DNA from: Flavisolibacter nicotianae
Lineage (GTDB): Bacteria > Bacteroidota > Bacteroidia > Chitinophagales > Chitinophagaceae
Assembly: GCF_003628535.1 (NCBI RefSeq)
Contig: NZ_RBCI01000008.1
Location: forward strand, 1 to 64,000
Direction: 5' to 3'
DNA: 64,000 nucleotides
Part shown: positions 5,571-57,468 of the stretch, one piece after another
Layout of the letters: every line of letters begins with the position of its first letter
Position numbering within the stretch: the stretch's first letter is position 1
Position numbers and translations under genes: made by a program
Notes under the pieces: generated by a model
What the model was told of the DNA's origin: nothing
The model's input: the letters and a program-made list of their open reading frames with translations, nothing else
Databases searched by the model: none

Positions 5571-5669
5571 AGAAGCCAAAAGCTATCAGCTTCAAGCTAC
5601 AAGCTGGTAGTGATAAAAGATATTGTTTGGACCAAAAATAATGCTTGCGGCTTGTAGCTTGAAGCTTGC
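5571..5669. repeat. Inverted heptad-array element between leuC and leuD
   Basis: The left arm (5571-5605) is five 7-base units, four ending in AGCT: agaagcc, aaaagct, atcagct, tcaagct, acaagct. The right arm (5642-5669) is four units of the complementary form: tgcttgc, ggcttgt, agcttga, agcttgc. The arms can pair; 17 bases are a perfect inverted repeat (5588-5604 against 5650-5666), with 36 bases between the arms. The element begins one base after the leuC stop and ends 14 bases before leuD. It would fold into a long hairpin in the leuCD message and might affect the relative yield of the two subunits (inference). Confidence 0.85.
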
Positions 5670-5683
5670 AGCACACTCACAAC

Positions 5684-6280
5684 ATGGCTTACGATAAATT
5701 CACCGTCCTCCGTTCTTCGGCTGTTCCCATGCCGATTGAAAATGTCGATACCGACCAGATCATCCCTGCCCGCTTTTTAAAAGCAACAAAAAGGGAAGGT
5801 TTTGGCGACAACCTGTTCCGCGACTGGCGCTACAACAGCGACAACACACCCAAGCAGGACTTTGTGTTGAACAACCCGATCTACTCCGGGAAAATCCTGG
5901 TAGCCGGGAAAAACTTTGGCAGTGGCAGCAGCCGCGAACACGCCGCCTGGGCTATTTACGATTACGGATTCCGTTGCGTGGTGTCCAGCTTTTTTGCCGA
6001 CATTTTTAAAAATAACTCCCTGAACATTGGTATCCTACCGGTAACCGTCAGTCCGGAATTCCTGGACAAGATCTATACGGCCATCGAAAAAGATCCAAAG
6101 ACGGAACTGGAAGTGAACCTGCCGGAGCAAACCATCACCATCCTGGCAACCGGTGAACAAGAGAGTTTTGACATCAACGGCTATAAAAAGCACAACATGC
6201 TGAACGGGTTCGATGACATTGATTTCCTGCAGGACATCAAAGACGGTATCAAGACGTTTGCCGACACGAGCCTTTATTAA
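5684..6280 (+). CDS. leuD: 3-isopropylmalate dehydratase small subunit
   Basis: 198 residues, the usual size. It contains the swivel-domain features of LeuD: NVDTDQIIPARFLK near the start and GKNFGSGSSREHAAWAI, whose GSGSSREH segment contacts substrate. It forms the heterodimer with LeuC. The start at ATG 5684 (MAYDKF) is preferred; the frame also contains an in-frame TTG at 5666, but that lies in the right arm of the heptad repeat. A short hairpin follows the stop before the LeuA-family gene. Confidence 0.96.
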   Translation: MAYDKFTVLRSSAVPMPIENVDTDQIIPARFLKATKREGFGDNLFRDWRYNSDNTPKQDFVLNNPIYSGKILVAGKNFGSGSSREHAAWAIYDYGFRCVVSSFFADIFKNNSLNIGILPVTVSPEFLDKIYTAIEKDPKTELEVNLPEQTITILATGEQESFDINGYKKHNMLNGFDDIDFLQDIKDGIKTFADTSLY

Positions 6281-6299
6281 ATAAGATCTTTAAAGAAGG

Positions 6300-6326
6300 C
6301 CCAACAGGTTTGCAAAAACTGTTGGG
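6300..6326 (+). terminator. Hairpin between leuD and the LeuA-family gene
   Basis: CCCAACAG (6300-6307) pairs perfectly with CTGTTGGG (6319-6326) around an 11-base loop, and further T-A pairs can form inside. No T-run follows, so it may be a weak terminator, a processing site or an attenuator rather than a full intrinsic terminator. It lies 20 bases after the leuD stop and 17 bases before the next ATG. Confidence 0.45.
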
Positions 6327-6343
6327 TCTGCCAACACAATCGT

Positions 6344-7921
6344 ATGCAAACAGCAACAAGCCTGATGGAAAGTCCCTCACCGGAAGTGAAGACAGCGACG
6401 CAACTGGCAAAGCGGCACATCGAAATCATGGACACCACACTTCGTGATGGTGAACAGACTAGCGGTGTTTCGTTCTCTGCTTCCGAAAAACTGACCATTG
6501 CGCAATTGTTGTTGACGGAAGTGAAGGTCGACCGCATTGAAATTGCTTCTGCCCGTGTATCGGAAGGCGAATTCAAGGCCGTTAAAAAAATTACGCAGTG
6601 GGCCGCCGCCAACGGCTACCTCGACCGGGTTGAAGTGCTCACCTTTGTTGACGGTACAACCTCCGTTGACTGGATGATCGAGGCCGGTGCAAAGGTGATG
6701 AACCTGCTTACCAAAGGTTCGCTCAATCACCTGACCCACCAACTCAAAAAAACACCAGAAGAACACTTCGCCGATATCGCCGCTGTGATTGCGTATGCAA
6801 AAGAAAAAGGTATTGAGACCAATGTGTACCTGGAAGACTGGAGCAACGGCATGCGCAACTCAAAAGAGTATGTGCTCCAGTACCTCGACTTTCTCCAGCA
6901 TCAGCCCATCAAACGGGTATTGCTCCCCGATACACTGGGAGTCTTGATTCCAACCGAAACCTACAACTATTTGCGTGAGCTGATCCATCGTTATCCGGCT
7001 TTGCATTTTGATTTTCATGCACACAACGACTACGACCTGGGCACCGCCAATGTGCTGGAAGCCGTTAGGGCTGGCGTGCACGGCTTGCACCTTACTATTA
7101 ACGGCATGGGCGAGCGGGCCGGTAATGCACCACTGGCCAGCGCTATTGCCGTGTTGAATGATTATGTCAAAGACGTCCGCACCTCGGTTGTGGAGAAGTC
7201 ATTGTATACCGTGAGCAAGCTGGTGGAAACGTTTTCGGGCTTCCGTATCCCGGCCAACAAACCGGTGGTGGGAGAGAACGTGTTTACCCAAACCGCCGGC
7301 ATCCATGCCGACGGTGATAAAAAGAACAAACTGTATTACAACGAGCTGATGCCAGAGCGTTTTGGTCGGCAACGCAAATACGCCCTGGGCAAAACCAGCG
7401 GCAAGGCCAACATCGAGAACAATCTTCACCAGCTGGGCATTCAGCTTTCGGAGGAGGACCTGAAGAAGGTGACGCAGCGCATCATCGAGTTGGGCGATAA
7501 AAAAGAAGTGGTCACGCAATCCGATCTGCCCTACATCATTTCCGATGTGTTGGACAGCGATGCTATCAAAGAAAAAGTGCAGGTGGAGAATTATGTGCTG
7601 ACGCATTCAAAAGACCTGCGTCCTTCTGCCACCATCCAGGTGACCATCGAAGGCGAAAGTTTTGAAGAGCATGCGCAGGGCGACGGCCAGTATGATGCGT
7701 TTATGAATGCACTGAAAAAGGTGTATGTGCAGAAAGGAGTTGTGTTGCCGCAGCTGACCGATTATGCGGTTCGCATTCCGCCCGGTGGTAAAACCGATGC
7801 GCTCTGCGAAACGATCATCACATGGTGTGTTAATGATCGAGAGTTCAAGACCCGTGGTCTCGACAGCGATCAGACAGTGTCTGCGATCAAGGCCACACAA
7901 AAAATGCTGAACCTGATTTGA
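6344..7921 (+). CDS. LeuA/CimA-family acyl transferase (2-isopropylmalate synthase-like)
   Basis: 525 residues. A catalytic TIM barrel begins with the DTTLRDGEQ motif (Asp30, Arg34, Asp35) and includes the metal-binding HAHNDYDLGTAN block and NGMGERAGN. The last roughly 110 residues form the LeuA dimer/regulatory domain with a PPGGKTDALCE segment, so end-product inhibition is plausible. The motif DGEQTSGVSFSASEKL differs from the common DGEQxPG form of LeuA, so condensation of pyruvate (citramalate synthase) is a real alternative to 2-oxoisovalerate; sequence alone does not decide it. Position between leuD and leuB favours a leucine or citramalate-route role. Start ATG 6344 gives a 20-residue leader before the barrel; Met8 is an alternative. 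Confidence 0.85.
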   Translation: MQTATSLMESPSPEVKTATQLAKRHIEIMDTTLRDGEQTSGVSFSASEKLTIAQLLLTEVKVDRIEIASARVSEGEFKAVKKITQWAAANGYLDRVEVLTFVDGTTSVDWMIEAGAKVMNLLTKGSLNHLTHQLKKTPEEHFADIAAVIAYAKEKGIETNVYLEDWSNGMRNSKEYVLQYLDFLQHQPIKRVLLPDTLGVLIPTETYNYLRELIHRYPALHFDFHAHNDYDLGTANVLEAVRAGVHGLHLTINGMGERAGNAPLASAIAVLNDYVKDVRTSVVEKSLYTVSKLVETFSGFRIPANKPVVGENVFTQTAGIHADGDKKNKLYYNELMPERFGRQRKYALGKTSGKANIENNLHQLGIQLSEEDLKKVTQRIIELGDKKEVVTQSDLPYIISDVLDSDAIKEKVQVENYVLTHSKDLRPSATIQVTIEGESFEEHAQGDGQYDAFMNALKKVYVQKGVVLPQLTDYAVRIPPGGKTDALCETIITWCVNDREFKTRGLDSDQTVSAIKATQKMLNLI

Positions 7922-7950
7922 TGCAGTTATTACCATAGAAATATTCGTAG

Positions 7951-7977
7951 GGACACGCCATGGCGTGTCCTTTTCTT
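7951..7977 (+). terminator. Perfect 20-bp palindrome with T-rich tail upstream of leuB
   Basis: Bases 7951-7970 read ggacacgccatggcgtgtcc, identical to their own reverse complement, followed by TTTTCTT (7971-7977). This has the form of an intrinsic terminator, yet it stands inside the leucine operon 22 bases before the leuB ATG. From memory, close relatives of this palindrome (GTAGGGACACG-type) are dispersed repeats in many bacterial genomes, so it may be a repeat that now works as a partial terminator. The ATG in its centre is in frame with leuB but should not be taken as the start. Confidence 0.65.
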
Positions 7978-7998
7978 AAAAAATACAAACCAACAGCA

Positions 7999-9072
7999 AT
8001 GGCAAAAAAGCACATTTTAATTGTACCCGGTGACGGAATCGGACAGGAAGTAACAGCCGTGGGTAAAAAAGTTCTGGACAAGATCGCAGAGAAGTTTGGG
8101 CACGAGTTTACCTATGATGAAGCCCAGATTGGCCACGTGGCCATTGAAGCAACCGGTAATCCTTTGCCGGATGAATCACTACAAAAAATGAAAGCTTCCG
8201 ATGCCGTTTTGTTTGGCGCTGTGGGGCATCCGAAGTACGACAACGATCCTTCTGCCAAAGTTCGTCCCGAACAAGGCTTGCTGAAGATGCGAAAGGAGCT
8301 GGGCCTTTATGCCAACCTTCGCCCCATCAAATTATTTGACGAATTGCTGGATGCGTCGAGCATTAAGCCCGAGATACTCCGCGGTGCCGATATCCTGTTT
8401 TTCCGCGAACTGACCGGCGATATTTATTTCGGTGAAAAAGGCCGCAAGAACAATGGTGACACCGCTTATGATGTCGCCGAGTACAGCCGCTACGAAGTGG
8501 AGCGCATTGCCCGCAAAGCCTTTGAAGCGGCCCGTACACGCCGAAAGAAATTGTGCTCTGTTGACAAGGCCAACGTGATTGAAACAAGCCGCTTGTGGCG
8601 TGAGGTGATCCAGAAGGTGGCACAGGAGTATCCTGATGTGGAAGTGGAACATCAGTTTGTAGATGCCACCGCCATGTTGCTCATTAAGGATCCGCGCCGT
8701 TTTGACGTGGTCGTGACGGCCAACCTGTTTGGTGATATTCTCACGGATGAGGCCTCGCAAATTGCGGGCTCCATGGGCATGCTGGCTTCGGCTTCCATTG
8801 GTGATGGTACCGGTGTGTACGAACCCATTCACGGTTCTGCACACGACATTACCGGGAAAGGTGTCGCCAACCCGCTGGCGTCCATTCTTTCTGCGGCTTT
8901 GTTGCTCGATATTTCCTTTGGGATGAAAGCCGAATCGGAAGCGGTGATCAACGCGGTTGATGCTGTCCTGAAACAGGGCTTCCGCACCCGTGATATCGCC
9001 GATGCACAAACGCCGGCAGAAAAGGTCCTGGGCACTGAAGCGATTGGTGAAGAAGTGCTGAAAGCATTGTAA
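7999..9072 (+). CDS. leuB: 3-isopropylmalate dehydrogenase
   Basis: 357 residues, typical length. It starts with the nucleotide-binding fold and PGDGIGQEV, has a dehydrogenase-family substrate segment (FFRELTGDIYFGEKG), the metal-binding region TNLFGDILTDEASQIAGSMG, and the NAD-selecting PIHGSAHDITGKGVANP segment. It oxidises 3-isopropylmalate and decarboxylates the product with NAD+. ATG 7999 (MAKKHILIVPGDG) is chosen because an upstream in-frame ATG at 7960 lies within a palindromic hairpin and would add 13 unrelated residues. It is the last gene of the leucine cluster; a hairpin follows at 9104. Confidence 0.97.
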   Translation: MAKKHILIVPGDGIGQEVTAVGKKVLDKIAEKFGHEFTYDEAQIGHVAIEATGNPLPDESLQKMKASDAVLFGAVGHPKYDNDPSAKVRPEQGLLKMRKELGLYANLRPIKLFDELLDASSIKPEILRGADILFFRELTGDIYFGEKGRKNNGDTAYDVAEYSRYEVERIARKAFEAARTRRKKLCSVDKANVIETSRLWREVIQKVAQEYPDVEVEHQFVDATAMLLIKDPRRFDVVVTANLFGDILTDEASQIAGSMGMLASASIGDGTGVYEPIHGSAHDITGKGVANPLASILSAALLLDISFGMKAESEAVINAVDAVLKQGFRTRDIADAQTPAEKVLGTEAIGEEVLKAL

Positions 9073-9103
9073 TCGGTTTCCTGATCGGGTAAGATTTTTT
9101 GGT

Positions 9104-9133
9104 AAGGGCTTACACGTCACAGTGTGAGCCCTT
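9104..9133 (+). terminator. Hairpin after leuB
   Basis: AAGGGCTTACAC (9104-9115) pairs with GTGTGAGCCCTT (9122-9133) with one G-T wobble and a 6-base loop. It lies 31 bases after the leuB stop. The following bases (GTTGTACC) are not a strong T-run, so it is a probable but not ideal terminator for the leucine operon. Confidence 0.6.
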
Positions 9134-9555
9134 GTTGTACCAGCAACAGGCCGCTGTTAGCGGAAGGGCAAAAAAAAGTCCACTGTAGAAACAGCGGACG
9201 CTAACGATTGCTTGCTATACGAAAAAGTTGAAAATTTCTTTTGTCGGGTCAGTCGCTTTGACTGATGAAACAAAAATAAAATACCAAAACCGCCGCTGCA
9301 CACCAATGTCAATTCTGTTTTACGATGCTCAACCCTGATTTCGATCGTTAAAATCCTTTCTGGTGGCTGGTTTCGGCGAATAGTAAGTTCGTGTTCAACG
9401 TGTTTTCCCACGATGGATTTTTCTTTTTTGTATGCGTTCTGCTAAAAAAATACGGGCCTGTCTGCACGATTGCCGGAAAAGCAGCCACGGCTGACACGTC
9501 CATCACTAATCCTTGTTGAATACTTTTATTTTGACCATTCTTCTCAGTTGATCCC
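9134..9555. other. Convergent intergenic region, no gene recognised
   Basis: This stretch lies between the ends of leuB (plus strand) and the GH10 xylanase (minus strand), so no promoter is needed here. A minus-strand frame of 84 codons exists at 9157-9411, but its composition is arbitrary and it has no recognisable motif. I see no repeat, RNA gene or further clear hairpin. Confidence 0.6.
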
Positions 9556-10659
9556 TTACCATTTCACCACCTCCCAGTAGGCTTTTTTGGGCTTGAGGTC
9601 TTTGTCGAATAAAAGCGGGTAGTCCTTCCGGTTTTTCACCGGGAAATTATCCAGCCAGCTGTACCGCTCGGAGATGTTCCAGAACGTAACGCCGGAAATT
9701 ACTTTTTTGTATTTGCGGAAAAGTTCAAAGGCCATTTTGTATTTCTCCAATTGCTGCTGTTCACGTTCAGCAGTGAAAGCGGTATTGGCATCTTCGGGTC
9801 TGCGTTCCCGTGCGTCGTGCTCTTTGGGATAAACGGAGATATCCAGTTCGGTGATCTGCAACTTCAGCCCCAGGCCGGCAAAGCGCTGAAGTGTACTTTC
9901 CAGTTGTTCTCTTGATGGTTCGTTCACCGCCCAATGACCCTGCAATCCTATACCGTGAATGGGCACGCCGGCGTCTTTCAGGCTCTTCACCAGGCGGTAA
10001 ATCTTTTCGCGTTTGACAGGACTGATCTCGTTGTAATCATTGTAAAAAAGAACGGCGTTCGGGTCGGCTTCGTGTGCCCATTGAAAGGCTTTGGCAATGT
10101 ATTCTTCACCGCAAATTTTTAACCACTGCGAAGGACGCAGGTATTCATCCGGTTTGTCGGAGATGGCTTCGTTCACCACGTCCCAGGCATACACGCTGCC
10201 CTTGTAGCGGTTGACCACGGTGAAGATGTGGTCTTTCAATCGCTGCAGCAACACCTCTTTGCTCACAGTGTTTCCTTTGTCATCCACAAACAGCCACGAA
10301 GGTGTCTGGTTGTGCCAGCAGAGGGTATGCCCACGGACCTTTAATTTGTTTCGCTGCGCAAACTGCACAATACTGTCGGCGCCTGCCCAGTTGTACTCGG
10401 TCTCCTTTGGATGGATAGGGCCCATCTTCATGGCGTTCTCCGGCGTCAGGCTGTTGAACTGCTGCAGCACCAGGGCTGCTTCATCGGTTTTCAGGGCCCG
10501 CGGTGAAACAGCTACACCCATCGTAAAGTAGTCGGCGTAATAATCTTTCAGTCCTTTTTCGGAAGAGGCCGTGTTGCCGGACGTCGATTGCAGCTGCCTG
10601 CTTTGGCTGCAGGAGAGAAGCAGCAGGAGGCCCGCTGCGCTGAAAAGTTTTTTGATCAT
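9556..10659 (-). CDS. GH10 endo-1,4-beta-xylanase, lipoprotein
   Basis: 367 residues. The N-terminus is a lipoprotein signal with lipobox LLSC (Cys17), then a short Ser-rich linker and a GH10 barrel. The acid/base is Glu164 in DVVNEA and the nucleophile Glu271 in ITELDIS; substrate-binding blocks LTPENAMKMG and GHTLCWHNQTPSW are intact. It cuts internal beta-1,4-xylosyl links. It is the most downstream gene of the minus-strand xylan group but is separated from the CE15 gene by 285 bases holding a large inverted repeat, so it may have its own promoter. Attachment to the outer membrane is inferred from the lipobox. Confidence 0.95.
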   Translation of the reverse strand: MIKKLFSAAGLLLLLSCSQSRQLQSTSGNTASSEKGLKDYYADYFTMGVAVSPRALKTDEAALVLQQFNSLTPENAMKMGPIHPKETEYNWAGADSIVQFAQRNKLKVRGHTLCWHNQTPSWLFVDDKGNTVSKEVLLQRLKDHIFTVVNRYKGSVYAWDVVNEAISDKPDEYLRPSQWLKICGEEYIAKAFQWAHEADPNAVLFYNDYNEISPVKREKIYRLVKSLKDAGVPIHGIGLQGHWAVNEPSREQLESTLQRFAGLGLKLQITELDISVYPKEHDARERRPEDANTAFTAEREQQQLEKYKMAFELFRKYKKVISGVTFWNISERYSWLDNFPVKNRKDYPLLFDKDLKPKKAYWEVVKW

Positions 10660-10753
10660 GGTTGTTTCAGGTTTTATTTTTTGTCACCGGCTTTTGTTCC
10701 TCGATGGAGCTTCCGTTGCGACGCTCCGTTCATCGTTCCATTCGCTAAGGAAC

Positions 10754-10842
10754 TTTTTAAAACCACAGTGACACGGTGGACACAGAGAACCACAGAGCTC
10801 TCTGTGCACCTTCGTGTCTTTGTGTCTCCGTGGTTCAAAAAA
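10754..10842. repeat. CCACGGAG-type imperfect inverted repeat
   Basis: The element between GH10 and CE15 starts with a T-run and aaaaccacagtg and ends with ctccgtggttc plus an A-run; the ends are inverted copies. Read from the right end on the minus strand it shows a roughly 8-base rhythm (CACGGAGA, CACAAAGA, CACGAAGG). A related element with nearly the same ends lies at 27438-27531. No gene is linked to it. It could fold into a long hairpin and terminate or stabilise transcripts in the minus-strand xylan group (inference). Confidence 0.75.
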
Positions 10843-10944
10843 CACAGTAGTGTTCAGAACCCTGAAGTGTGCGACGCAAGAGAAGCTAAATAGAATTTCT
10901 GCTGCCGGTTACATCATTCTCATTTATGTAAAAGAGCTGCGCAA

Positions 10945-12300
10945 TTATCTTTTCCAATACCGCTCTGCAAACTGCAGAAAGGTGGGCCAGTTGGGACCCG
11001 TGGTATGGCCGCCGCTGTGCTGTCGCCAGGCAATGTCGCCGTTGAGCAAAGCAACTTCCTGCGGCGGCATTTCGGTGACGCCCAGGTCTTTTTTACCCAG
11101 CAGGCGGTACACCGGTCCTGCGTGCACGCCGGCGATGAACATGCCCTTTGCATCGATCCACTGGCCTTCCACGGTTGGCGAACCCACGCTGATGAACACG
11201 GGTCGCGGCGCACATAGCGCAATCAGTTCGTGGGCATCAACAGGTAAATCATTCGGTGTCAGCGGGCCTGCGTACTTGATAAAGTTGCCGGCAAACCAAT
11301 GGTATTCGCCGGAAGAGGCCAGGTTCTCCACCTGTTCGCCAAACACACGGCGCAGGATCTTGGCGCCACCGGCTCCCGACGATCCAATAAAGCCAATGGC
11401 AAAACGCGGCTCGTATGCCATGGCCACCAGTGCAGCCTTGCCGTAGCGGGAGAGGCCTTCAATGCCCACCCGTTTGGCGTCAACCGCTTTGTCAGTTTCA
11501 AAATAATCCAGCGCACGGCTGGCGCCCCAGGCCCAGGCTTTCAACGTGCCCCAGTCATCGGGTTTGCGGGGCTGGCCCCTGTTCACCAGGCCAATGATGC
11601 CCTGCGTAAGCCCTGCACCGTTATCGGCCTGGTAACTCGTTGGAACAAGAATGGCATAGCCCCAGCCTTTTGCCAGCACCTGTTCCTGCCAGGTAGGTCC
11701 CGGCGTTTGCATGCTGGCCGGCAGGCGAAAACCGGCCGGGAACTGGAAGCCGAATTCCATCATCACCGGCACCGGGCCCCGGGCTTCGGCCGGCGTGGTG
11801 AGGGTGAGTTGAATGTCGACTTTGATCGCCGGGTGAGATGAATTATCCACGTGACCGATCAATCGTTTGGTCACCGCTTTTATGCTGCCAACAGTGTCAT
11901 TGGAAACCGAGGCCATTTCCCATTTTACGCCGGGAACATTGGCCGGCACCCGGCCGTAAATTTCCCGGTCAAACTCTTCCACGATCTCGGGCCTACGCTT
12001 TTCCCACCAGGATTTTGCATTGGCTACTTTCTGTCCGTTCTTCAACGTTAGCGGATCGGGCAGGGTAGTGTAGGGAGTAGCCTTTGTTTCATCGCTGTTG
12101 GCTGCGTTGGGCGCCTGCGGATTACCGGAGGGACCGGGCCTTGTGGCAGTGATGCCCAACTGCTGCAACATGTTTTTGTAATCCTGTTGCGTGAGCTTGT
12201 TGATGCTGTCCATGCGCAGGCTGTCGGCGCGGCTCAAACGAAATTGCGCCTGCCCCTGCAAGGCGGCCAAACAGAAAAAAGTGATCGCCAGTTTTTTCAT
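10945..12300 (-). CDS. CE15-type 4-O-methyl-glucuronoyl methylesterase, secreted
   Basis: 451 residues with an Sec signal peptide (cut near QGQAQ) and an alpha/beta-hydrolase fold. The CE15 nucleophile motif is GLSRYGK with Ser284, and the catalytic His is likely His432 in GGHTTGPNWPTF. Such enzymes split the ester between glucuronic acid side chains of xylan and lignin alcohols. The start codon overlaps the stop of the CE4 gene by four bases, so the two are translationally coupled. Together with GH115 (removes glucuronic acid) and GH10 this forms a glucuronoxylan debranching set. The N-terminal 70 residues are rich in Gln, Asn and Pro and look like a linker. Confidence 0.9.
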   Translation of the reverse strand: MKKLAITFFCLAALQGQAQFRLSRADSLRMDSINKLTQQDYKNMLQQLGITATRPGPSGNPQAPNAANSDETKATPYTTLPDPLTLKNGQKVANAKSWWEKRRPEIVEEFDREIYGRVPANVPGVKWEMASVSNDTVGSIKAVTKRLIGHVDNSSHPAIKVDIQLTLTTPAEARGPVPVMMEFGFQFPAGFRLPASMQTPGPTWQEQVLAKGWGYAILVPTSYQADNGAGLTQGIIGLVNRGQPRKPDDWGTLKAWAWGASRALDYFETDKAVDAKRVGIEGLSRYGKAALVAMAYEPRFAIGFIGSSGAGGAKILRRVFGEQVENLASSGEYHWFAGNFIKYAGPLTPNDLPVDAHELIALCAPRPVFISVGSPTVEGQWIDAKGMFIAGVHAGPVYRLLGKKDLGVTEMPPQEVALLNGDIAWRQHSGGHTTGPNWPTFLQFAERYWKR

Positions 12301-13100: not shown

Positions 13101-13116
13101 GTGTGCAAATTGTTTT

Positions 13117-15045: not shown

Positions 15046-15099
15046 GGAAAGGAGTCTTGAAAAATTTTCGGTTGATCGTTTTGGCTAGGTTGGTGTTTT

Positions 15100-15132
15100 A
15101 GACACCGGAGGTTTTTAAAACCTCCGGTGTCT
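15100..15132. repeat. Perfect 16-bp-arm hairpin between GH43 and acetylesterase genes
   Basis: AGACACCGGAGGTTTT (15100-15115), one T, then the exact inverse (15117-15132). It lies 12 bases after the GH43 stop and 54 bases before the next start on the minus strand. The A/T-rich centre and GC-rich arms differ from a normal terminator, and no long T-run follows on the minus strand. From memory, GACACC-GGAGGTTT-type palindromes recur in Bacteroidota, so this may be a dispersed repeat. Confidence 0.8.
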
Positions 15133-15143
15133 TTGGTTGCCTG

Positions 15144-16241: not shown

Positions 16242-16284
16242 AAGAAGTGATCGTTTGAAAAGTGTATGCGTTTAAAGTTTCTGC

Positions 16285-18840: not shown

Positions 18841-18868
18841 CAGCAAGTTTTTCGTAGCGTTTTATGTA

Positions 18869-24323: not shown

Positions 24324-24431
24324 CGTGGATGGTCAGTGGTCAATCGTGAATAGAGGCAGTCTGCTTTTGCCTGCAGCCGTGCGTTAGAAAACAGCGTCAT
24401 AAAATTCACCATTGACCATTGACCATTCCCT
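24324..24431. repeat. Inverted heptad-array element between xylA and the symporter gene
   Basis: The left arm (24324-24351) is four heptads: cgtggat, ggtcagt, ggtcaat, cgtgaat. The right arm (24404-24431) is four in the inverse direction: attcacc, attgacc, attgacc, attccct. The arms are largely complementary, with 52 bases between. The element begins three bases after the xylA stop and ends 45 bases before the symporter start. Same design as the elements at 5571, 44820 and 57410 but with another heptad. Confidence 0.85.
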
Positions 24432-43550: not shown

Positions 43551-43620
43551 TATTCGCGCAAAGCAAAGGAGCAATAAGGAGTAATGAAGAATCCCTCTGT
43601 TGGCTCTCTGCAAAATAATT

Positions 43621-43639
43621 TGTTGACCGGTCGTCAACA
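43621..43639 (+). promoter_or_regulatory. Palindromic operator-like site upstream of GH26
   Basis: TGTTGAC, five bases CGGTC, then GTCAACA form a perfect 7-bp inverted repeat, 28 bases before the GH26 ATG. A TAATTTG sequence, one base short of the -7 consensus, lies just before it. The position fits a repressor site, but the regulator is unknown. Confidence 0.4.
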
Positions 43640-43667
43640 GCCATAATAAAAATAACTATTGAAAACC

Positions 43668-44837
43668 ATGCGCTTTCCTATTTCGCTTTTTGTTTTAATC
43701 GGTTCGATAGCCCTTGGATGCAATCACAAATTGGCGGTTACAGGTTCTTCGTCAGGGACGAGTGCAGAAAGTCTTGTTGATGAAAAAGCAACACCCGAAA
43801 CAAGGGCCCTGTTTCAAAACCTGCTGGCGCTATCCAAAGAACATACCCTTTTCGGCCACCAGCATGCCACCGAGTACGGGCATGGATGGGCAGGAGAAGA
43901 AAATCGTTCGGATGTAAAGTCGGTGACCGGCTCGCACCCCGCCGTGATTGGCGTGGACCTGAGTGGCTTTTCCGGCCAGCCGGCGGCGACTGTGCAAAAG
44001 GAAAAAGAACGGGTCCGCAAAACCGTAGAAGAAACCTACAACCGCGGTGGCGTGACAACGGTTGCCTGGCATTTCAACAACCCCGTTTCTCCGGGCGGGT
44101 TTTACTGGAAAGATTCCGTTTCGCTGCCGGCCGTGAAATACATCATTCCCGGCGGACAGGCCAACAACACCTATAAAGAAATCTTACGCGGCATTGGCGA
44201 CTGGGCCAAGAGCACAATAGGAAAGGACGGAAAGCTGGTGCCGATGGTCTTTCGTCCCTTTCATGAATTTGATGGTGGCTGGTTTTGGTGGGGCGCACCG
44301 CATTGCACCAAAGAAGAATTTGTCTCGCTGTGGCGCTTTACCGTTTCGTATTTACGAGACAGTGTTGGCGTGCACAATTTTATCTACGCGTTTTCCCCCG
44401 ACAACCGTTTCAACAGCGAGGAGGAATACCTGCAACGCTATCCCGGCGACGCGTGGGTGGATATGGTGGGCATCGACAACTACGGCGACATGGGCCGCGA
44501 CGGAAAGTACAACCTCGATGCCGCGATCCGGAAGTTGAAAATCGTTTCGGACTATGCGGTGAAGAAAGGCAAGCTCGCGGCGTTTACCGAAACAGGACTG
44601 GAGTCTCTGCCCAATTCGAATTGGTGGAATGATGTGTTGCTGAAAGTGATGAAGTCGGAAGGTATGCGTCTTTCGTATGTGTTGGTTTGGCGCAACGATC
44701 AGCACAGCCCGACACACTACTATGCACCCTTTCCTGGTCACAGCAGCGTGCCGGATTTTTTAAAATTTTACAATGATCCGTACACGTTGTTCGAAAACGA
44801 TTTGAAGAATATTTATGAAGTCAAAAGGCAAAACTAA
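43668..44837 (+). CDS. GH26 beta-mannanase-type lipoprotein
   Basis: 389 residues from ATG 43668 (frame opens with TTG 43659). Lipobox IALGC (Cys18), Ser/Thr-rich linker, then a GH26 barrel with acid/base Glu200 in FRPFHEFDGGWFWWG and nucleophile Glu308 in FTETGLE. It is more similar to the GH26 half of the preceding fusion (shared HTLFGHQHATEYG-like and SDVK-VTG-HPAV blocks) than to the GH26 at 29298. Such enzymes often release mannobiose, the substrate needed by the epimerase and phosphorylase downstream. Its stop codon lies inside the left arm of an inverted heptad array. Confidence 0.93.
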   Translation: MRFPISLFVLIGSIALGCNHKLAVTGSSSGTSAESLVDEKATPETRALFQNLLALSKEHTLFGHQHATEYGHGWAGEENRSDVKSVTGSHPAVIGVDLSGFSGQPAATVQKEKERVRKTVEETYNRGGVTTVAWHFNNPVSPGGFYWKDSVSLPAVKYIIPGGQANNTYKEILRGIGDWAKSTIGKDGKLVPMVFRPFHEFDGGWFWWGAPHCTKEEFVSLWRFTVSYLRDSVGVHNFIYAFSPDNRFNSEEEYLQRYPGDAWVDMVGIDNYGDMGRDGKYNLDAAIRKLKIVSDYAVKKGKLAAFTETGLESLPNSNWWNDVLLKVMKSEGMRLSYVLVWRNDQHSPTHYYAPFPGHSSVPDFLKFYNDPYTLFENDLKNIYEVKRQN

Positions 44838-44896
44838 AAAGTGAAAATCTGGCTGATTTGCTGCGGCGTTTTATCTTTTGCCTTTTGAATTTTTAC
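44820..44896. repeat. Inverted heptad-array element between GH26 and symporter genes
   Basis: Left arm 44820-44847: gtcaaaa, ggcaaaa, ctaaaaa, gtgaaaa. Right arm 44869-44896: ttttatc, ttttgcc, ttttgaa, tttttac. Each arm has exactly four heptads; the arms are inverse to each other, with a 21-base spacer. The left arm contains the GH26 stop codon (TAA 44835-44837) and the right arm ends eight bases before the symporter ATG. This is the most regular of the four inverted elements. Confidence 0.88.
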
Positions 44897-44904
44897 TCAA
44901 GAAA

Positions 44905-47998: not shown

Positions 47999-48014
47999 CA
48001 GTTTCTCACAAAAC

Positions 48015-48049
48015 GGGGTGGCTGATCGCAGCCGCCCCTCTTTTTTTTT
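48015..48049 (+). terminator. Intrinsic terminator directly in front of the epimerase start codon
   Basis: GGGGTGGCT (48015-48023) pairs with AGCCGCCCC (48030-48038) with one wobble around GATCGC, and TC plus nine T follow (to 48049). The epimerase ATG is at 48054. So the T-run itself forms the leader just before the start codon. It would lower expression of the downstream genes unless there is readthrough. Confidence 0.85.
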
Positions 48050-48053
48050 ACGT

Positions 48054-50821: not shown

Positions 50822-50828
50822 AGTTCAC

Positions 50829-53693
50829 ATGAAATGTATCCATCCTTCGTTGGTAAAAGCGGGGTGTGCGGCTGTTGGCTTCCTGCTGTTTTCATTTTCT
50901 GTTTTTGCAGGTGATTTTACCAGGACAAGTGACGGCCTTATTGTGCATCCCGATGCGCCGTTTAGCGGCGGGGCTACAGACGTGCAGTTGAAAGTGATAG
51001 CTGACAATATCATCCGGGTGATCGCTGTTGCCGATAAAAAAATGCAGCCTGATACAAGTCTTGTTGTGCTGAAGCAAACACCAGCGGCAAAGTGGACGGT
51101 AACCAACACAAAAGCAACGGTGAGCCTGAAAACCGCAAGACTGACGGCCGTCGTCAGCCTGCAAACCGGCGCCGTGCAGTTCTTTGATGCAGCGGGAAAA
51201 AAGATCCTGGCAGAAAAAGAAGTGGGCCGCCAATTGCAGCCGCAGGTTTTTGAAGGAAAACGTTTGTACAGTGTGCGGCAGGATTTCGCAACGTCGTCTG
51301 ATGATGCCCTGTATGGCCTGGGCCAGCACCAGGATGCCGTGATGAACTACAAGGGGAGCCAGGTATTGTTGTGGCAGAACAACACCGAAGTGGCTGTGCC
51401 CTTCCTGCTCTCTAAAAAGAACTACGGCATTTTGTGGGACAATGCTTCCGTCACGCAGTTTGGCGATGTGCGTCCCTACCAGCAATTGAATGCGCTGAAA
51501 CTTTATTCAAAAGACGGGGACCAGGGCTGGCTCACCGCCACCTACAGCAACGACAAAAGCAAGCCCGCCGACGCCGTTTTGCAAAAAGCCGAATCCGGCA
51601 TCAACATGGAATTCCTGGGTGATTCCAAACTCATTTTACCCGCAGCCTTCAAGCCGGAAAACGGCGTGGTGACCTGGGAAGGAAGCATCGCTTCCGAGTG
51701 GAACGGTGTGCACAAATTCCGGTTTACCTACGGTGGGTATGCAAAGCTTTGGATCGACGGCAAGCTGCTGTTCGACCGCTGGCGGCAATCCTGGAACCCC
51801 GGTTCCGTCGTAACGGAAGTGGCGCTGGCAAAAGGAGAGAAGCACAGTTTTAAACTGGAATGGATTCCCAGTGGCGGGGAGTCTTACCTCACCGCGAAAT
51901 TCCTGCCGCCGCAAACCGAAGAGGAGCGGAACAGCTACAGCTTTGCTTCCGAAGCCGGCAAGGCACTCGATTACTATTTTATTTACGGCCAAAACATGGA
52001 TGACGTGATCGCCGGTTACCGCAAACTAACGGGCAAGGCAACACTGTTACCCAAATGGACCTTTGGCTTCTGGCAGAGCCGCGAACGGTACAAAACGCAA
52101 AAGGAAATCATGGATGTGGTGGAAGAGTTCCGCAAGCGCAGAATTCCCCTCGACAACATCGTGGAAGACTGGAGCTACTGGAAACAGGCCGAGTGGGGGA
52201 GTCAGGAATTTGACGAAGAGCGTTTCCCCAACGCGGAGAGCATGATCCAGGCCCTGCACAACCAGTACCACGCACATTTCATGATTTCGGTGTGGCCCAA
52301 GTTTTACGAGGGCATCCCCAATTATACAGACTTCAACAACAAGGGCTGGTTGTACAAGCGCAACATCGCCGACAGGCAGCGCGACTGGATCGCACAAGGC
52401 TATATTTCCACGTTTTATGATCCGTTCAACCCCGCCGCGCAAAAAGGCTTTTGGGACCTGCTCAACAAAAAGCTGTACACCAAAGGCGTGGATGCGTGGT
52501 GGATGGATGCCAGCGAGCCGGATATTCTTTCCAACGTGTCGCCGCAAAAGCGCAAGGAGCAAATGGTGGGACTGTACAACGGTCCGGCTGCGGCTTACCT
52601 CAATGCCTACCCGATGCAAAATGCCAAAGGCATTTACGAAGGACAAAGGGGGACCAATCCGAACACCCGTGTGTTCATCCTCACCCGTTCGGCCTTTGCA
52701 GGGCAGCAGCGCTACGCAGCTGCCACGTGGAGCGGCGACATCGCTTCCCGCTGGCACGACATGAAAGACCAGATCGCTGCCGGCACCAACTTTTCCATGT
52801 CGGGGAGTCCCTACTGGACGATGGACATCGGTGGTTTTGCCGTGGAAAGAAGATATGAAAGACCCAACGAAGAAGACCTCGAAGAATGGCGGGAACTGAA
52901 CACCCGCTGGTTCCAGTTTGGCACCTTTGTACCGCTTTTCCGTGCACACGGCCAGTTTCCCTACCGCGAAATTTTTAACATCGCTCCCGAAACACACCCG
53001 GCTTATCAAAGCATGTTGTACTACAACAAGCTTCGTTACCGCCTGCTGCCCTACATCTATTCGCTGGCCGGTGCCGCTTATCACAACGACGGCACCCTCA
53101 TGCGGGGACTGGTGATGGATTTCCCCAAAGACACAGCGGTGAACAACATCAACGATCAATACCTGTTTGGTCCTTCGCTGTTGATCAATCCGGTGATCAA
53201 TTATAAGCAACTGAGTCGCGAGGTGTACCTGCCAAAAGGCGCCGGGTGGTTTGATCTCTACAACGGAACCTTTGTAAGCGGCGGCAACCGCATCAACGCC
53301 GATGCGACCTACGAACGCATGCCGGTGTATGTAAAAGCCGGCTCCATCCTGCCGTTCGGCCCGGAGCTGCAATACACGTCGGAAAAGCCGGCTGAGGAAA
53401 TCACGCTGTACGTGTACTCCGGTGCAGATGGCTCGTTCAATCTTTATGAAGACGAAGGCACGAATTACAATTACGAGAAAGGTGCCTTTGCCGTCATCCC
53501 GATGAAATACAACGAGGCTGGCAAAACATTGACGATCGGTGAACGCAAAGGTTCGTTCAACGGCATGCTGCAGCAACGCCGGTTCAACATTGTGTGGGTT
53601 ACCAAAGACAACAAGGCGGGCATAGATGTGCCGCACGGTGCCGTTGATTCCGTTACATATAGCGGAAAGACATTGACGATAAAAATGAAATAA
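50829..53693 (+). CDS. GH31 alpha-xylosidase-like enzyme with PA14 insertion
   Basis: 954 residues with a signal peptide (cut near FSVFAGD). N-terminal beta-sandwich, a PA14-like insertion (about 230-360, KFRFTYGGYAKLWIDGKLLFDRW), a TIM barrel with nucleophile Asp560 in WWMDASEPD and acid/base Asp637 in TWSGDIASRW, then C-terminal beta domains. PA14-bearing GH31 enzymes are known alpha-xylosidases acting on xyloglucan oligosaccharides, so the locus may also touch xyloglucan; alpha-glucosidase is the other option. It lies seven bases after the TolB-like gene and nine before the next lipoprotein gene, one transcription unit. Confidence 0.9.
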   Translation: MKCIHPSLVKAGCAAVGFLLFSFSVFAGDFTRTSDGLIVHPDAPFSGGATDVQLKVIADNIIRVIAVADKKMQPDTSLVVLKQTPAAKWTVTNTKATVSLKTARLTAVVSLQTGAVQFFDAAGKKILAEKEVGRQLQPQVFEGKRLYSVRQDFATSSDDALYGLGQHQDAVMNYKGSQVLLWQNNTEVAVPFLLSKKNYGILWDNASVTQFGDVRPYQQLNALKLYSKDGDQGWLTATYSNDKSKPADAVLQKAESGINMEFLGDSKLILPAAFKPENGVVTWEGSIASEWNGVHKFRFTYGGYAKLWIDGKLLFDRWRQSWNPGSVVTEVALAKGEKHSFKLEWIPSGGESYLTAKFLPPQTEEERNSYSFASEAGKALDYYFIYGQNMDDVIAGYRKLTGKATLLPKWTFGFWQSRERYKTQKEIMDVVEEFRKRRIPLDNIVEDWSYWKQAEWGSQEFDEERFPNAESMIQALHNQYHAHFMISVWPKFYEGIPNYTDFNNKGWLYKRNIADRQRDWIAQGYISTFYDPFNPAAQKGFWDLLNKKLYTKGVDAWWMDASEPDILSNVSPQKRKEQMVGLYNGPAAAYLNAYPMQNAKGIYEGQRGTNPNTRVFILTRSAFAGQQRYAAATWSGDIASRWHDMKDQIAAGTNFSMSGSPYWTMDIGGFAVERRYERPNEEDLEEWRELNTRWFQFGTFVPLFRAHGQFPYREIFNIAPETHPAYQSMLYYNKLRYRLLPYIYSLAGAAYHNDGTLMRGLVMDFPKDTAVNNINDQYLFGPSLLINPVINYKQLSREVYLPKGAGWFDLYNGTFVSGGNRINADATYERMPVYVKAGSILPFGPELQYTSEKPAEEITLYVYSGADGSFNLYEDEGTNYNYEKGAFAVIPMKYNEAGKTLTIGERKGSFNGMLQQRRFNIVWVTKDNKAGIDVPHGAVDSVTYSGKTLTIKMK

Positions 53694-53702
53694 TCCAACC
53701 GA

Positions 53703-55445
53703 ATGAAAAAGCTGCATTTTTTGAGCGTATTGCTGGTTCTTGTCTTTTCATTTTCATGTAAAAAAACCAGCAACAGTGGCAGCGGCAACGCGAACGGCGG
53801 CAACACAGGCGGCGGCGCTGTGGTGACGCCGACGGAGCCTGCTGTTGAAAACACCATCGGTTTTTTTCTTGATACATGGACGCCCAAAAACTTCACCGTG
53901 CCTACCGCTTACACCGAGGCAGCAGTTCCGACGGAATCCCCGGCCGCATTGGTGACAATCGATGCGTCGAAAATCATCACGAAAGTGTCTTCGTTCACCT
54001 TTGGCCAAAATACCAATACCTGGATGACACAGATTGTTACGGAGCCTGCGCTGTCTAACCACCTCAGCACGCTGAAGCCAACCGTTCTTCGCTTTCCGGG
54101 CGGAAGCATCAGTGATGTGTTCTTCTGGAATGCGGAAAACAACAAACTGCCGGCAGATGTGCCGGCATCCCTGCTGGATGCCGAGGGGAAACCGTTTACG
54201 CCGTATTACTGGTATGGAAAAAACACGGACCCGTGGACGTTTTCTGTCGATAATTATTATCGCTTGCGGCAGCAAACCGGTAGCGAAGGACTGATCACTG
54301 TTAATTACGGTTATGCCCGTTATGGTACCGGTCCTAACCCGGTTGCGCAGGCGGCGCACCTGGCGGCAGATTGGGTGCGCTACGACAATGGCCGCACCAA
54401 ATACTGGGAGATCGGCAATGAGAGCAACGGTACCTGGGAAGCCGGGTACCGCATCAATACTGTTGCAAACAGGGACGGGCAACCGGAAATGGTAACCGGC
54501 GCTTTGTATGGACAGCACGTCGGCGTGTTTATCGACTCGATGCGCAAAGCCGCGCAGGAGATTGGCAAAACCATCTACATCGGCGCTTACATTTTAGAGA
54601 AGCAGCCCGAAAACTGGCAAACGTCCGCCGACAAAGGCTGGAACAGCGGAGTCTTTGGAGCTGTTGCCAACAAGCCGGATTACTATGTCATTCACAGTTA
54701 CTATACGCCGTACAAAACCAATGCGTCGGCCGACGCGATCCTGGCAACGGCAAGCGATAACACCACGGCCATGATGACGTATGTAAAGCAAAACATGACA
54801 GCGGCGGGAGTAACGATAAAACCGGTTGCGTTGGATGAATGGAATATTACGTCGGAAGGTTCGCTGCAACAGGTGTCTTTCATCAACGGCATGCATGCAA
54901 CGATCCTATTGGGCGAAGCTATCAAAAACAAATACGGCATGACAAGCCGCTGGGACCTGGCCAACGGATGGGCCAACGGAAATGATCACGGCCTGTTCAA
55001 CATCGGCGATGAACCCGGTGTAAGCAAATGGAATCCACGGCCGGCCTTTTATTACATGTATTATTTTCAAAAAATGATGGGCGACCGGATGCTTTCCTCC
55101 AGTTTTCTGTATGGCGGTACCGGCCTTTTGGCTTATGCGTCGTCGTTTACTTCGGGTGAAAAAGGCGTGATCCTGGTAAACAAAGACAAGACTGCAAAAC
55201 TTGTGCAGGTAGGATTGGACAACGCTAAGCCGGGCAGCCGGTTTTACTGGTACACCCTGGCCGGCGGCACCGACAATGGCGAGTTTTCGCGAAAGGTTTA
55301 TGTGAACAATATGGGTCCCAGTGAACCATCGGGCGGTCCTGCAACGGAATACACGACCATCAAACCCTATTCCGCATCAACCAGCGGCGGTATCAAAGTT
55401 GCCCTTCCCGCCCGTTCGGTCGTGTACATGGTCATTGACAAATAA
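53703..55445 (+). CDS. Clan GH-A glycoside hydrolase lipoprotein, related to GH51/GH44-type enzymes
   Basis: 580 residues. Lipobox SFSC (Cys19) followed by a Ser/Asn/Gly-rich linker (20-45). The barrel has a RFPGGSISDVFFWN segment, the probable acid/base Glu240 in YWEIGNESNGTWE and the probable nucleophile Glu379 in VALDEWNI; a C-terminal beta domain ends in LPARSVVYMVIDK. The order and spacing fit a retaining clan GH-A enzyme like GH51 arabinofuranosidase or GH44, but I cannot place it in one family. Candidate activities are arabinofuranosidase, endoglucanase or xyloglucanase. Confidence 0.7.
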   Translation: MKKLHFLSVLLVLVFSFSCKKTSNSGSGNANGGNTGGGAVVTPTEPAVENTIGFFLDTWTPKNFTVPTAYTEAAVPTESPAALVTIDASKIITKVSSFTFGQNTNTWMTQIVTEPALSNHLSTLKPTVLRFPGGSISDVFFWNAENNKLPADVPASLLDAEGKPFTPYYWYGKNTDPWTFSVDNYYRLRQQTGSEGLITVNYGYARYGTGPNPVAQAAHLAADWVRYDNGRTKYWEIGNESNGTWEAGYRINTVANRDGQPEMVTGALYGQHVGVFIDSMRKAAQEIGKTIYIGAYILEKQPENWQTSADKGWNSGVFGAVANKPDYYVIHSYYTPYKTNASADAILATASDNTTAMMTYVKQNMTAAGVTIKPVALDEWNITSEGSLQQVSFINGMHATILLGEAIKNKYGMTSRWDLANGWANGNDHGLFNIGDEPGVSKWNPRPAFYYMYYFQKMMGDRMLSSSFLYGGTGLLAYASSFTSGEKGVILVNKDKTAKLVQVGLDNAKPGSRFYWYTLAGGTDNGEFSRKVYVNNMGPSEPSGGPATEYTTIKPYSASTSGGIKVALPARSVVYMVIDK

Positions 55446-55499
55446 TTCGAATATACAGTGACGTCTAAAACCAATCATCTTTTCAATTATCAGATACAA

Positions 55500-57365
55500 A
55501 TGGACAGAAAAATATTTCTTGGGAATGTAAGATGGCTGGCAACAGGTAACGGTATGCTTCCGTTGTCAGGCAGATTAGCAGATAATACATGCCGGTTAAA
55601 AGAAAAAAAGGGAAAGCGATTGTCTAAAAACGTTCTGTCCCTTTGCGCATGGCTTGTTTCAGTGACAGGACATGCACAGACCGTACAAGAGCGTATTCAA
55701 TTAAACCAGGTGGGATTTTATCCTGCAGCGCCGAAGATTGCGGTTGTGACCGGAAAAACAGATGCGAAGACCTTTTTCATAACCTCGCCTGATGGCCGGG
55801 TGAAATTGTTTACCGGTAAGCTTTCAGACGAGAAACCATCGCGGTATTCGTCCACCATCACACGGACTGCAGACTTCAGTGCGTTCACCAAAAAAGGCCG
55901 ATACGTGGTTTCGGTACCGGGAGTGGCAACATCCTATGCATTTACCATCGGCGACAACGTTCACGACAATGCGGCAAAGACCGTGTTGAAAGCATTTTAC
56001 TTTATCCGTTCCGACATGCCGCTCGAGAAGAAATTTGCGGGCAAATGGAACCGTCCTGCCGGCCATCCCGATACCGCTGTTTTGGTGCATCCGTCGGCGG
56101 CCACTGAACAGCGTCCCGCCGGTACGGTGCTTTCTTCTCCCGGTGGTTGGTACGATGCCGGGGATTACAACAAGTACATCGTCAACTCGGGTATCACGAT
56201 GGGTACGTTGCTTTCGGCTTACGAAGATTTTCCGCAGTACTTCAGCAAGCTGAATGTGGTTATCCCGGAAGGCGGTAATGACGTCCCCGATATTTTAAAT
56301 GAAGCGCTTTATAACCTTCGCTGGATGCTCACCATGCAGGACCCGGCTGATGGTGGTGTGTATCACAAACTGACAAATGCCGCCTTTGATGGTATGGTGA
56401 TGCCGGGAGTGACCAAACTGCCCCGCTACGTGGTGCAAAAAGGCACGGCGGCCACGCTTGACTTTGCGGCCGTGACCGCACAAGCCGCACGGATCTTGCA
56501 GAAATTTTCAAAACAGTTTCCGGGACTGGCCGACAGTTGCCGCGCCGCAGCCGTGAAGGCCTGGCAGTGGGCGGAGAAGAATCCTGCGGTAATCTACAGC
56601 CAGCGGGAGATCAATCCGAAATACGATCCCGACATCACCACCGGTGAATACGGCGACAGAAATTTTAAGGACGAATGGCTGTGGGCGGCTGCCGAATTGT
56701 TTGCCACCACAAAAGAGACAATCTACCTGTCGGTTGTGCAGGAACGAATGAAAGACCCGGCGCAGTTGCCTTCCTGGGGCAACGTGGCCATGCTGGGTTA
56801 TTACACAATGATCCGCATGGAAAATAACCTTCCGGCAGCAAAAGCAACGATTGCAGCAATGAAAGACACGGTGCTCAAAATAGCTACCACGTACCTGTCG
56901 AATGTTGGCGCCAATGCCTTTGCCACCGTGATGGGACAAAACGTAAAAGATTTTAGCTGGGGCGGAAACTCCGTGGCGGCCAACCAGGGCATTCTCTTGC
57001 TCCGGGCTTACCTGCTCACCAAAAACAAAAACTACCTGGATGGCGCACTGACTAATCTGGATTACATCCTGGGAAGAAACGCAACGGGCTATTCGTTCGT
57101 TACCGGCATTGGCAGCAAGCGGGTGATGCACCCGCACCACCGTCCGTCGGAAGCGGATGGCATCGATGATCCCGTTCCGGGCCTGCTGTCCGGCGGGCCC
57201 AACCCGGGCATGCAGGACAAGTGTCAATATCCTTCTGCCGAACCGGAGCTGGCTTATGTGGACAGTGTTTGTTCCTATGCTTCCAACGAAATTGCTATCA
57301 ACTGGCAGGCGCCAATGGTTTATCTCGCCTGCGCCATCGAAGCGCTGCAAAAAGAATTGAAGTAA
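55500..57365 (+). CDS. GH9 endoglucanase, secreted
   Basis: 621 residues from ATG 55500. N-terminal Ig-like CelD domain (IQLNQVGFYPAAPKIAVV), then the GH9 alpha6/alpha6 barrel with GGWYDAGDYNKYIVNSG (nucleophilic water base), HHRPSEADG and the acid Glu597 in YASNEIAINWQAP. The start is unclear: the clear signal peptide (SKNVLSLCAWLVSVTGHAQ) begins about 40 residues after ATG 55500, and an in-frame TTG at 55620 would give a normal signal peptide of about 20 residues. A purine-rich stretch precedes that TTG. Substrate: beta-1,4-glucan or glucomannan. Last gene of the plus-strand polysaccharide block. Confidence 0.9.
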   Translation: MDRKIFLGNVRWLATGNGMLPLSGRLADNTCRLKEKKGKRLSKNVLSLCAWLVSVTGHAQTVQERIQLNQVGFYPAAPKIAVVTGKTDAKTFFITSPDGRVKLFTGKLSDEKPSRYSSTITRTADFSAFTKKGRYVVSVPGVATSYAFTIGDNVHDNAAKTVLKAFYFIRSDMPLEKKFAGKWNRPAGHPDTAVLVHPSAATEQRPAGTVLSSPGGWYDAGDYNKYIVNSGITMGTLLSAYEDFPQYFSKLNVVIPEGGNDVPDILNEALYNLRWMLTMQDPADGGVYHKLTNAAFDGMVMPGVTKLPRYVVQKGTAATLDFAAVTAQAARILQKFSKQFPGLADSCRAAAVKAWQWAEKNPAVIYSQREINPKYDPDITTGEYGDRNFKDEWLWAAAELFATTKETIYLSVVQERMKDPAQLPSWGNVAMLGYYTMIRMENNLPAAKATIAAMKDTVLKIATTYLSNVGANAFATVMGQNVKDFSWGGNSVAANQGILLLRAYLLTKNKNYLDGALTNLDYILGRNATGYSFVTGIGSKRVMHPHHRPSEADGIDDPVPGLLSGGPNPGMQDKCQYPSAEPELAYVDSVCSYASNEIAINWQAPMVYLACAIEALQKELK

Positions 57366-57409
57366 AATAGGTTGCCGTTTTAAACTGGATGGGCCGGTTG
57401 AGAACGAGG

Positions 57410-57468
57410 AGGCAGTCGGCAATCAGCCATCCGTGAATGTCCTAATCGACGCCAATTGCTGACTGCCG
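57410..57468. repeat. Inverted heptad-array element between GH9 and ClC genes
   Basis: Left arm 57410-57437: aggcagt, cggcaat, cagccat, ccgtgaa. Right arm 57441-57468: cctaatc, gacgcca, attgctg, actgccg. The outer two heptads of each arm pair well (12 of 13 bases in the core), the inner ones poorly, with only 3 bases between arms. It lies 44 bases after the GH9 stop and 30 before the ClC stop, so here between convergent genes. Confidence 0.7.

Follow-up and report, generated by a model that had tools for sequence, protein, structure and literature searches.

Inverted pairs of seven- and eight-base tandem arrays in gene gaps of Flavisolibacter nicotianae

The window analysed here is the whole 64,000-nucleotide stretch that forms bases 1-64000 of contig NZ_RBCI01000008.1 (C64) in the 6.09-Mb genome of Flavisolibacter nicotianae (G000). 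A sequence-only reading of the window pointed to four spacers in which two tandem arrays of 7-base units face each other, with a different heptad at each locus, and to a fifth spacer with a direct array. This raises the question of whether such spacers are local curiosities or belong to a wider design, and how that design could have arisen. The pattern of 7- and 8-base arrays in gene gaps, often arranged as inverted pairs, is real. These gap-filling arrays form a dynamic class, broader than the published repeats of a single word.

Periods, inverted partners and words of the gap arrays

The G000 sample comprised 858 kb (C13:1-600000 and the whole of C64), in which gaps of at least 30 nt between greedy open reading frame calls amounted to 76,952 nt. 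Periods 5 to 12 were scanned, and ten sets of dinucleotide shuffles served as controls. Samples of 400 kb and 390 kb were taken from the genomes G015 and G002. The stretches of these two genomes and contig C13 of G000 were picked for GGTCAAT-type matches and are non-random, so the array densities are not genome averages.

The G000 gaps contained 33 period-7 and 13 period-8 arrays, while the shuffles averaged 0.2 for each; for periods 5, 6, 9, 10, 11 and 12 the counts were 0, 1, 1, 0, 0 and 0. The coding sequence (785 kb, about ten times the gap length) held 10 period-7, 4 period-8 and 16 period-6 arrays. Heptanucleotide arrays are thus above chance and mostly intergenic, and the expectation that period 7 is commoner in spacers than in shuffled sequence was borne out. 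Since both periods lie far above the shuffles, the rhythm is 7 or 8 and not only 7. Heptanucleotide STRR repeats were reportedly described by Mazel in 1990; a unit length of 7 alone, as in these arrays and in long simple sequence repeats (LSSRs), does not fit G000, with its 13 period-8 arrays and additional 8-nt pairs. The G002 gaps held 23 period-7 and 2 period-8 arrays, and those of G015 held 71 and 8, together with 5 of period 9. Period-11 gap arrays numbered 7 in the G015 sample (L052-L071), 0 in that of G000 and 1 in that of G002.

Intergenic hairpins with a score of at least 12 were also frequent: 464 kb held 54, whereas a single dinucleotide shuffle gave 2. Among the 36 long-loop hairpins in the 858 kb of G000 (loop >12 nt, the longest 142 nt; score at least 12), the best period was 7 in 14 and 8 in 8 (z >2.5), with one each for 6 and 12; a rerun over further periods gave 7 in 15, 8 in 8 and one each for 5, 6 and 12. 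As hairpins were the starting point of this count, arrays were in turn picked blind to pairing and examined for partners with the same word within 200 nt. The choice of arrays was slightly wider, hence 36 rather than 33 period-7 arrays in G000. The results were as follows.

G000: period 7, inverted partner 20/36, direct 2, shuffled word 2/180; period 8, inverted 10/14, direct 1/14, shuffled word 3/70
G006: period 7, inverted partner 17/32, direct 1, shuffled word 1/160; period 8, inverted 6/10, shuffled word 2/50
G014: period 7, inverted partner 11/52, direct 4, shuffled word 8/260; period 8, inverted 4/11, shuffled word 0/55
G002: period 7, inverted partner 5/23, direct 2, shuffled word 1/115; period 8, inverted 0/2, shuffled word 0/10
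G015: period 7, inverted partner 10/72, direct 15/72, shuffled word 25/360; period 8, inverted 1/9, shuffled word 2/45

Inverted pairing is strong in four of the five species and weak in G015. Pairing is therefore not universal; in G015 direct partners outnumber inverted ones.

The words themselves recur. The exact word of an array recurred at a distance of over 1.5 kb, or in a different sampled stretch, for 39% of the period-7 arrays of G000 (8% for shuffled words) and, taken genome by genome, for 34-78% (7-14% for letter-shuffled words). GGTCAAT accounted for 16 of the 23 arrays in the G002 stretches, which were picked for that word, and AAACCCC for 3 of 36 arrays in G000. Within a single array the word can drift gradually at constant register. 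A division into fixed and free columns within words is not claimed, the overdispersion being only mild (mean z 0.56 and 0.74). The sequence-only reading had held that the conserved property is the 7-base rhythm with the inversion and not a motif. This stands insofar as the layout is met near stop codons again and again, each time with another word and in the relatives too, and needs amending for the 8-base class and the reuse of words.

Loci of the window and their orthologous gaps

The arrays of the window are listed below with the methods that support them; TRF denotes the tandem repeat search.

123..240, + strand: direct array (AGTTTGG)16.9 with perfect copies (TRF and reading)
5581..5608, + strand: 5' arm of AAGCTNN units in the gap between the leuC-like and leuD-like genes (reading, hairpin scan, folding)
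5643..5672, + strand: 3' arm of GCTTGNN units, the inverse of the AAGCTNN arm (TRF, array scan)
24329..24351, + strand: 5' arm of GGTCAAT units behind a xylose-isomerase-like TIM-barrel gene (hairpin scan, folding)
24404..24427, + strand: 3' arm of ATTGACC units upstream of an SSF symporter gene (TRF, hairpin scan, folding)
44818..44847, + strand: 5' arm of AAAA-NNN units over the stop codon of a GH26 gene (TRF, hairpin scan, array scan)
44869..44893, + strand: 3' arm of TTTT-NNN units (hairpin scan, array scan)
57411..57423, + strand: 5' arm of GGCAGTC/GGCAATC units behind a GH9 gene, the weakest locus (reading, folding)
57455..57467, + strand: 3' arm of the 57411 stem (RNA folding)

Of the four facing pairs, three were recovered by automated scan. 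The fourth, at 57410-57468, was identified by reading and folding alone: TRF, the hairpin scan and the array scan did not flag a period of 7 there, and its 13-pair stem (including one G-U pair) gives the spacer a fold z of -2.8. At the leuC-leuD locus, complementarity is perfect over a core of 17 nt (5588-5604/5650-5666), and the folded RNA has -40.1 kcal/mol. The hairpin scan placed the stem of 24324-24431 at 24329-24351/24404-24426, and this region folds with a z of -6.1. Rfam gave no match above the gathering score in the window. The 5' arm starts 8 nt behind the stop codon at 24329 and about 11 nt behind it at 5581, and overlaps it at 44818; at 57411 the distance is 45 nt. The count of exactly four heptads per arm in three loci proved only approximate. 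The direct TTTGGAG-type array was confirmed as perfect, with 16.9 copies at 123-240, and begins inside the stop codon 122-124 (frame read by eye). In the sister genomes G014 and G006 the arrays in the orthologous gaps are short and built from the related word GTTTGTR. The 17 perfect copies are likely a recent expansion, and their number is perhaps variable between strains.

The leuC-leuD gap illustrates the replacement of words. The flanking genes match the large and small parts of the aconitase family, and we take them to be leuC and leuD. All pairs found in this gap are inverted, and the word is AAGCTNN in G000, TTTGGAG in G001 and TTCAATG in G014 and G006; related genomes thus do contain paired arrays, and this check did not refute the sequence-only reading. 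The fold z of the gap is -4.8 in G000, -6.4 in G001 and -4.6 in G006. G001 and G005 both have a LeuC-like protein 89% identical to that of G000, and the gap of G005 measures 40 nt and lacks a pair. Short gaps without a pair were found in G012, G004, G013, G015 and G017, and in G003 and G007 the gaps are longer with no pair seen. The LeuC-like protein of G000 (window 4079-6280) shows 89-90% identity to those of G001 and G005, but in nine further members of the genus the figure is only 64-67%; from these identities, leuCD of the G000/G001/G005 subgroup may have been replaced.

A wider view came from comparing G014 with G006 at 78 orthologous gaps, on contigs picked via leuC and the 22995 gene, with pairs taken at a looser score of 10. 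Period-7 arrays were present in 20 and 14 of these gaps, respectively, with 9 in common, and period-8 arrays in 5 and 4, with 1 in common. Period 6 occurred in one gap of each genome and the other periods from 5 to 12 in none. At one orthologous gap G014 has an array of TTTGGGG, where G006 has a pair of inverted 8-base arrays. In another, a GAGCT pair is common to both genomes, and its 3' arm is little changed (by eye).

Pairs are under-represented between divergent genes: 3 of the 38 lie there, compared with 172 of the 754 background gaps (p 0.028), and one of the three, at 24329, was counted there through a faulty gene call, since the genes on either side of it are both on the + strand. The same deficit was observed for single arrays (23 of 160; p 0.019). 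The two arms also differ in composition on the coding strand: among 25 tandem pairs, purines prevail in the post-stop arm in 19 and pyrimidines in 3, with 3 ties (p 0.0009 for the 22 informative pairs).

Pairs in other phyla and repeats already in print

Paired AAGCTNN arrays were found in at least 116 stretches of a species-genome collection. Among the 80 matches listed, the titles name Pseudomonas and other Gammaproteobacteria, Bacteroidota, Desulfobacterales and other Deltaproteobacteria, Phycisphaerae, Omnitrophota and Verrucomicrobia. Away from the match itself, the same 80 loci contained 18 period-7 arrays (at least 4 units; some AAGCT-like again), 2 of period 8, 1 of period 6 and none of the other periods from 5 to 12. 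In all 116 pairs examined, both arms use one word. The 232 arms have 4 units in 68 cases, 5 in 64 and 3 (the minimum detectable) in 40, a mild mode at four. Unit numbers of the two arms correlate with rho 0.36 and are equal in 39 of the 116 pairs, which lends mild support, across many genomes, to the suggestion that the arms change in step. The free letters agree in register (0.37, 0.70) exactly as well as out of register (0.37, 0.70), indicating that complementarity between the arms is not maintained base by base; unit-by-unit inverted copying was rejected for these pairs on the same ground.

The strict AAGCT pair was found in 0 of 395 genomes of the phylum of the window, the window genome included, and the reversed control word in 1. 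The matches in many phyla therefore reflect a shared design and not a universal word, and a privileged status of AAGCT was rejected. In 18 of 19 genomes with an AAGCT pair (20 of the 116 loci), AAGCT array matches exceeded those of the reversed control (e.g. 80 vs 0, 178 vs 1 and 247 vs 42), a comparison biased by the choice of genomes for holding such a pair and by multiple counting of long arrays; the 19th genome, G431, matched neither. Words from other phyla (n=23) matched the genus vocabulary at 7/7 positions in 30% of cases (14% shuffled) and at 6/7 in 91% (95% shuffled). Phage as the main carrier was rejected, as the AAGCT pair was present in just 4 stretches of a viral contig collection.

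The closest described system consists of the GGGAATC/GGGGAYT heptamers of Xanthomonas and Nostoc, discussed as quadruplexes (Rehm et al., 2015; PMC4692102). These repeats are intergenic, lie in sense orientation just after stop codons and in antisense just before starts, are few in divergent gaps, most commonly have four units, and keep their gene context for 83% between sister species. Inverted pairs of GGGAATC number 70 and 75 in Xanthomonas and are few in Nostoc, so the earlier statement that the paired form was undescribed fails. The present arrays share the 7-nt unit, in which some positions are fixed and others free, the four-unit preference (mild here), the position, including rarity in divergent gaps, and the same-word inverted pairs within a gap. 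They differ in that their words are numerous and mostly free of G-runs (GGG is absent from all four paired words of the window), that 8-nt units occur too, and that one word can take the place of another at a given gap. TAACTGA heptamers of Beggiatoaceae, cyanobacteria and some Bacteroidetes (MacGregor, 2015; PMC4679880) are likewise intergenic 7-nt tandem arrays in scattered phyla, with 7-nt indels between strains, but comprise a single word, whose arrays are direct apart from one indirect case in the main genome and lie mostly upstream of starts. For LSSRs, an excess of heptanucleotides and an origin by slippage have been proposed (Mrazek, 2007, as described in PMC4679880 and PMC4692102); the present arrays have the excess and the slippage idea in common with LSSR and STRR heptanucleotides, and the available descriptions do not include the paired form. 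Among the titles and abstract openings listed by a search of mostly open literature, there was no other paper describing many-word inverted heptad pairs, 8-base pairs or word replacement, which leaves their absence unproven, and the many-word, 7-or-8, word-swapping form looks new. It joins single-word repeats such as GGGAATC and TAACTGA into one many-word design and adds the 8-base class. The preference for 7 and 8 with hardly any 6, 9 or 10 may bear on polymerase stepping or RNA stems, and in the related species one can trace how intercistronic hairpins arise, drift and are replaced.

Candidate explanations and minor observations

The reading we favour, tentatively and at somewhat below even odds, is that stepwise-duplicated, dispersed words form RNA hairpins between cistrons or at 3' ends. 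The loci of the window belong to a class found throughout the genome, in which degenerate units of 7 or 8 bases are arrayed in tandem in gene gaps. Slippage would duplicate the units stepwise, and an inverted copy of the same word might arise by strand or template switching within the gap or be copied from elsewhere in the genome. A transcribed pair would fold into an imperfect 3'-end or intercistronic hairpin, distinct from a canonical terminator, that may limit decay from the 3' side or separate neighbouring genes. Any word that pairs with its own inverse would suffice, and drift or exchange of words would then leave the layout intact. In favour of this reading stand the counts by period, the excess of inverted partners in four of five species, the reuse of words, the word swaps at orthologous gaps, the deficit in divergent gaps, the purine-rich 5' arm, the predicted folds, and terminator-like hairpins behind the homologue of the 24320 gene in at least five of 11 relatives (by eye). 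A similar effect is proposed for E. coli, where RNA structures set unequal decay within operons (Dar and Sorek, 2018; PMC5927463), but those structures generally lie within coding regions. Several results weigh against the favoured reading. The leuC-leuD gap of G014 folds weakly (z -1.28), and the pair at 44820-44896 is genuine, yet A-rich and weaker (z -1.64 for 44815-44904). Proximity to the stop codon is only in mild excess (17 of 25 tandem pairs within 20 nt, 12.4 expected from gap size), and slippage at one locus alone leaves the recurrence of the same word at distant loci unexplained. Turnover is high, with an array or pair on both sides in 11 of the 33 G014/G006 gaps that have either; the free letters are not complementary between arms; and the arrays of G015 are mostly unpaired. 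These last three points, with presence and absence at orthologous gaps, favour a purely mutational by-product, in which slippage of 7 or 8 bases and fold-back template switching act mostly between genes, unselected and functionless. Such an origin, for whose first step the proposed cause of the heptanucleotide excess in LSSRs is a precedent, is nearly as likely as the hairpin reading. It accounts poorly for identical words at distant loci, the strand asymmetry of the arms and the deficit in divergent gaps, inverted partners ten times as frequent as direct ones in G000, and the GAGCT pair retained in G014 and G006. An unlikely further possibility is a trans-acting copying process that spreads species-specific 7-/8-base words, overwrites orthologous gaps and tends to leave inverted pairs, in a layout that several phyla have in common, partly with the same words.

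The recurrence of one word at many loci per genome, and the G005 leuC-leuD gap without an element, would also suit a dispersed mobile or copied element inserted after stop codons. REP, BIME and REPIN elements are many dispersed intercistronic palindromes of this kind, which lie after stop codons and also within operons. REPs share 20-40 nt of sequence, whereas the present loci share only words of 7-8 nt: beyond these the arms differ and the loops are mutually unlike, with no common 20-40 nt palindrome seen by eye. PF01797 (RAYT-type) matched 14 of 18 genus members, with 3 matches in G000, but was absent in G005, only weakly matched in the array-rich G015, and not found in G004, G008 and G010 (62-84% complete). 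Considering also the few viral stretches with an AAGCT pair, an element of the REP/REPIN or MITE type is improbable. Little credence can likewise be given to ordinary intrinsic terminators with repetitive stems. Terminator-like hairpins do follow the homologue of the 24320 gene, which precedes the GGTCAAT pair in G000, in at least 5 of 11 relatives (by eye), where the next gene is not always the same, and convergent gaps hold 10 of 38 pairs (134 of 754 in the background; p 0.20). However, the loops at the three hairpin-scanned window loci are 45, 52 and 42 nt long, and no short-loop stem with a T-run was found on the + strand at any of the four inverted loci, by a scan that detects loops of 3-8 nt only and performs near chance (30 found, 30.2 in shuffles). 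One terminator-like site lies on the - strand within the 5' arm (5606-5587). Moreover, efficient termination in the leuC-leuD gap would separate two subunits of one enzyme, which counts against terminators. A fixed unit length with variable sequence recalls DRT10-like, telomerase-like reverse transcriptases that write arrays from a short RNA template; in one studied system, tandem repeats of 9 nt are added from a non-coding RNA template (PMC12632851), and the available text does not state that the product enters the chromosome. Given the many words per genome and the lack of a PF00078 match in G000 (completeness 100) and the GGTCAAT-rich G002 (90), although PF00078 may miss divergent reverse transcriptases, such an enzyme is very improbable here. 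The PF00078, PF01797 and Rfam searches gave no support for explanations by a reverse transcriptase, a RAYT or an Rfam RNA. G-quadruplex elements, as proposed for GGGAATC, would match in position and unit number the Xanthomonas repeats, and some arrays have GGGG or CCCC words (AAACCCC in G000, TTTGGGG in G014/G006). Since AAGCTNN, GGTCAAT, AAAA-NNN and GGCARTC, like most listed words, lack a run of three G, quadruplexes are excluded by sequence as a general explanation, and their chance of being the right one is close to nil.

Besides these arrays, the window also has SusC/SusD-like genes, which point to Bacteroidota. The hairpin scan found a perfect inverted repeat, TTTTTTTGAACCACGGAG, at 27438-27455/27514-27531 with a 58-nt loop and without a period of 7 or 8. 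A similar string, AGGAACCACGGAGGCACAGG, is present in a gap of G015 (L068:1600), and the repeat may thus represent a further dispersed hairpin class. Three gap regions of G015 (L067 8900-10100, L068 1600-2300 and L069 7300-8000) are mosaics of several different heptad arrays and share longer modules in the order GTTGACAGG.., GAACAAGGAACAAGG.., AATGTTCAATGCTC...

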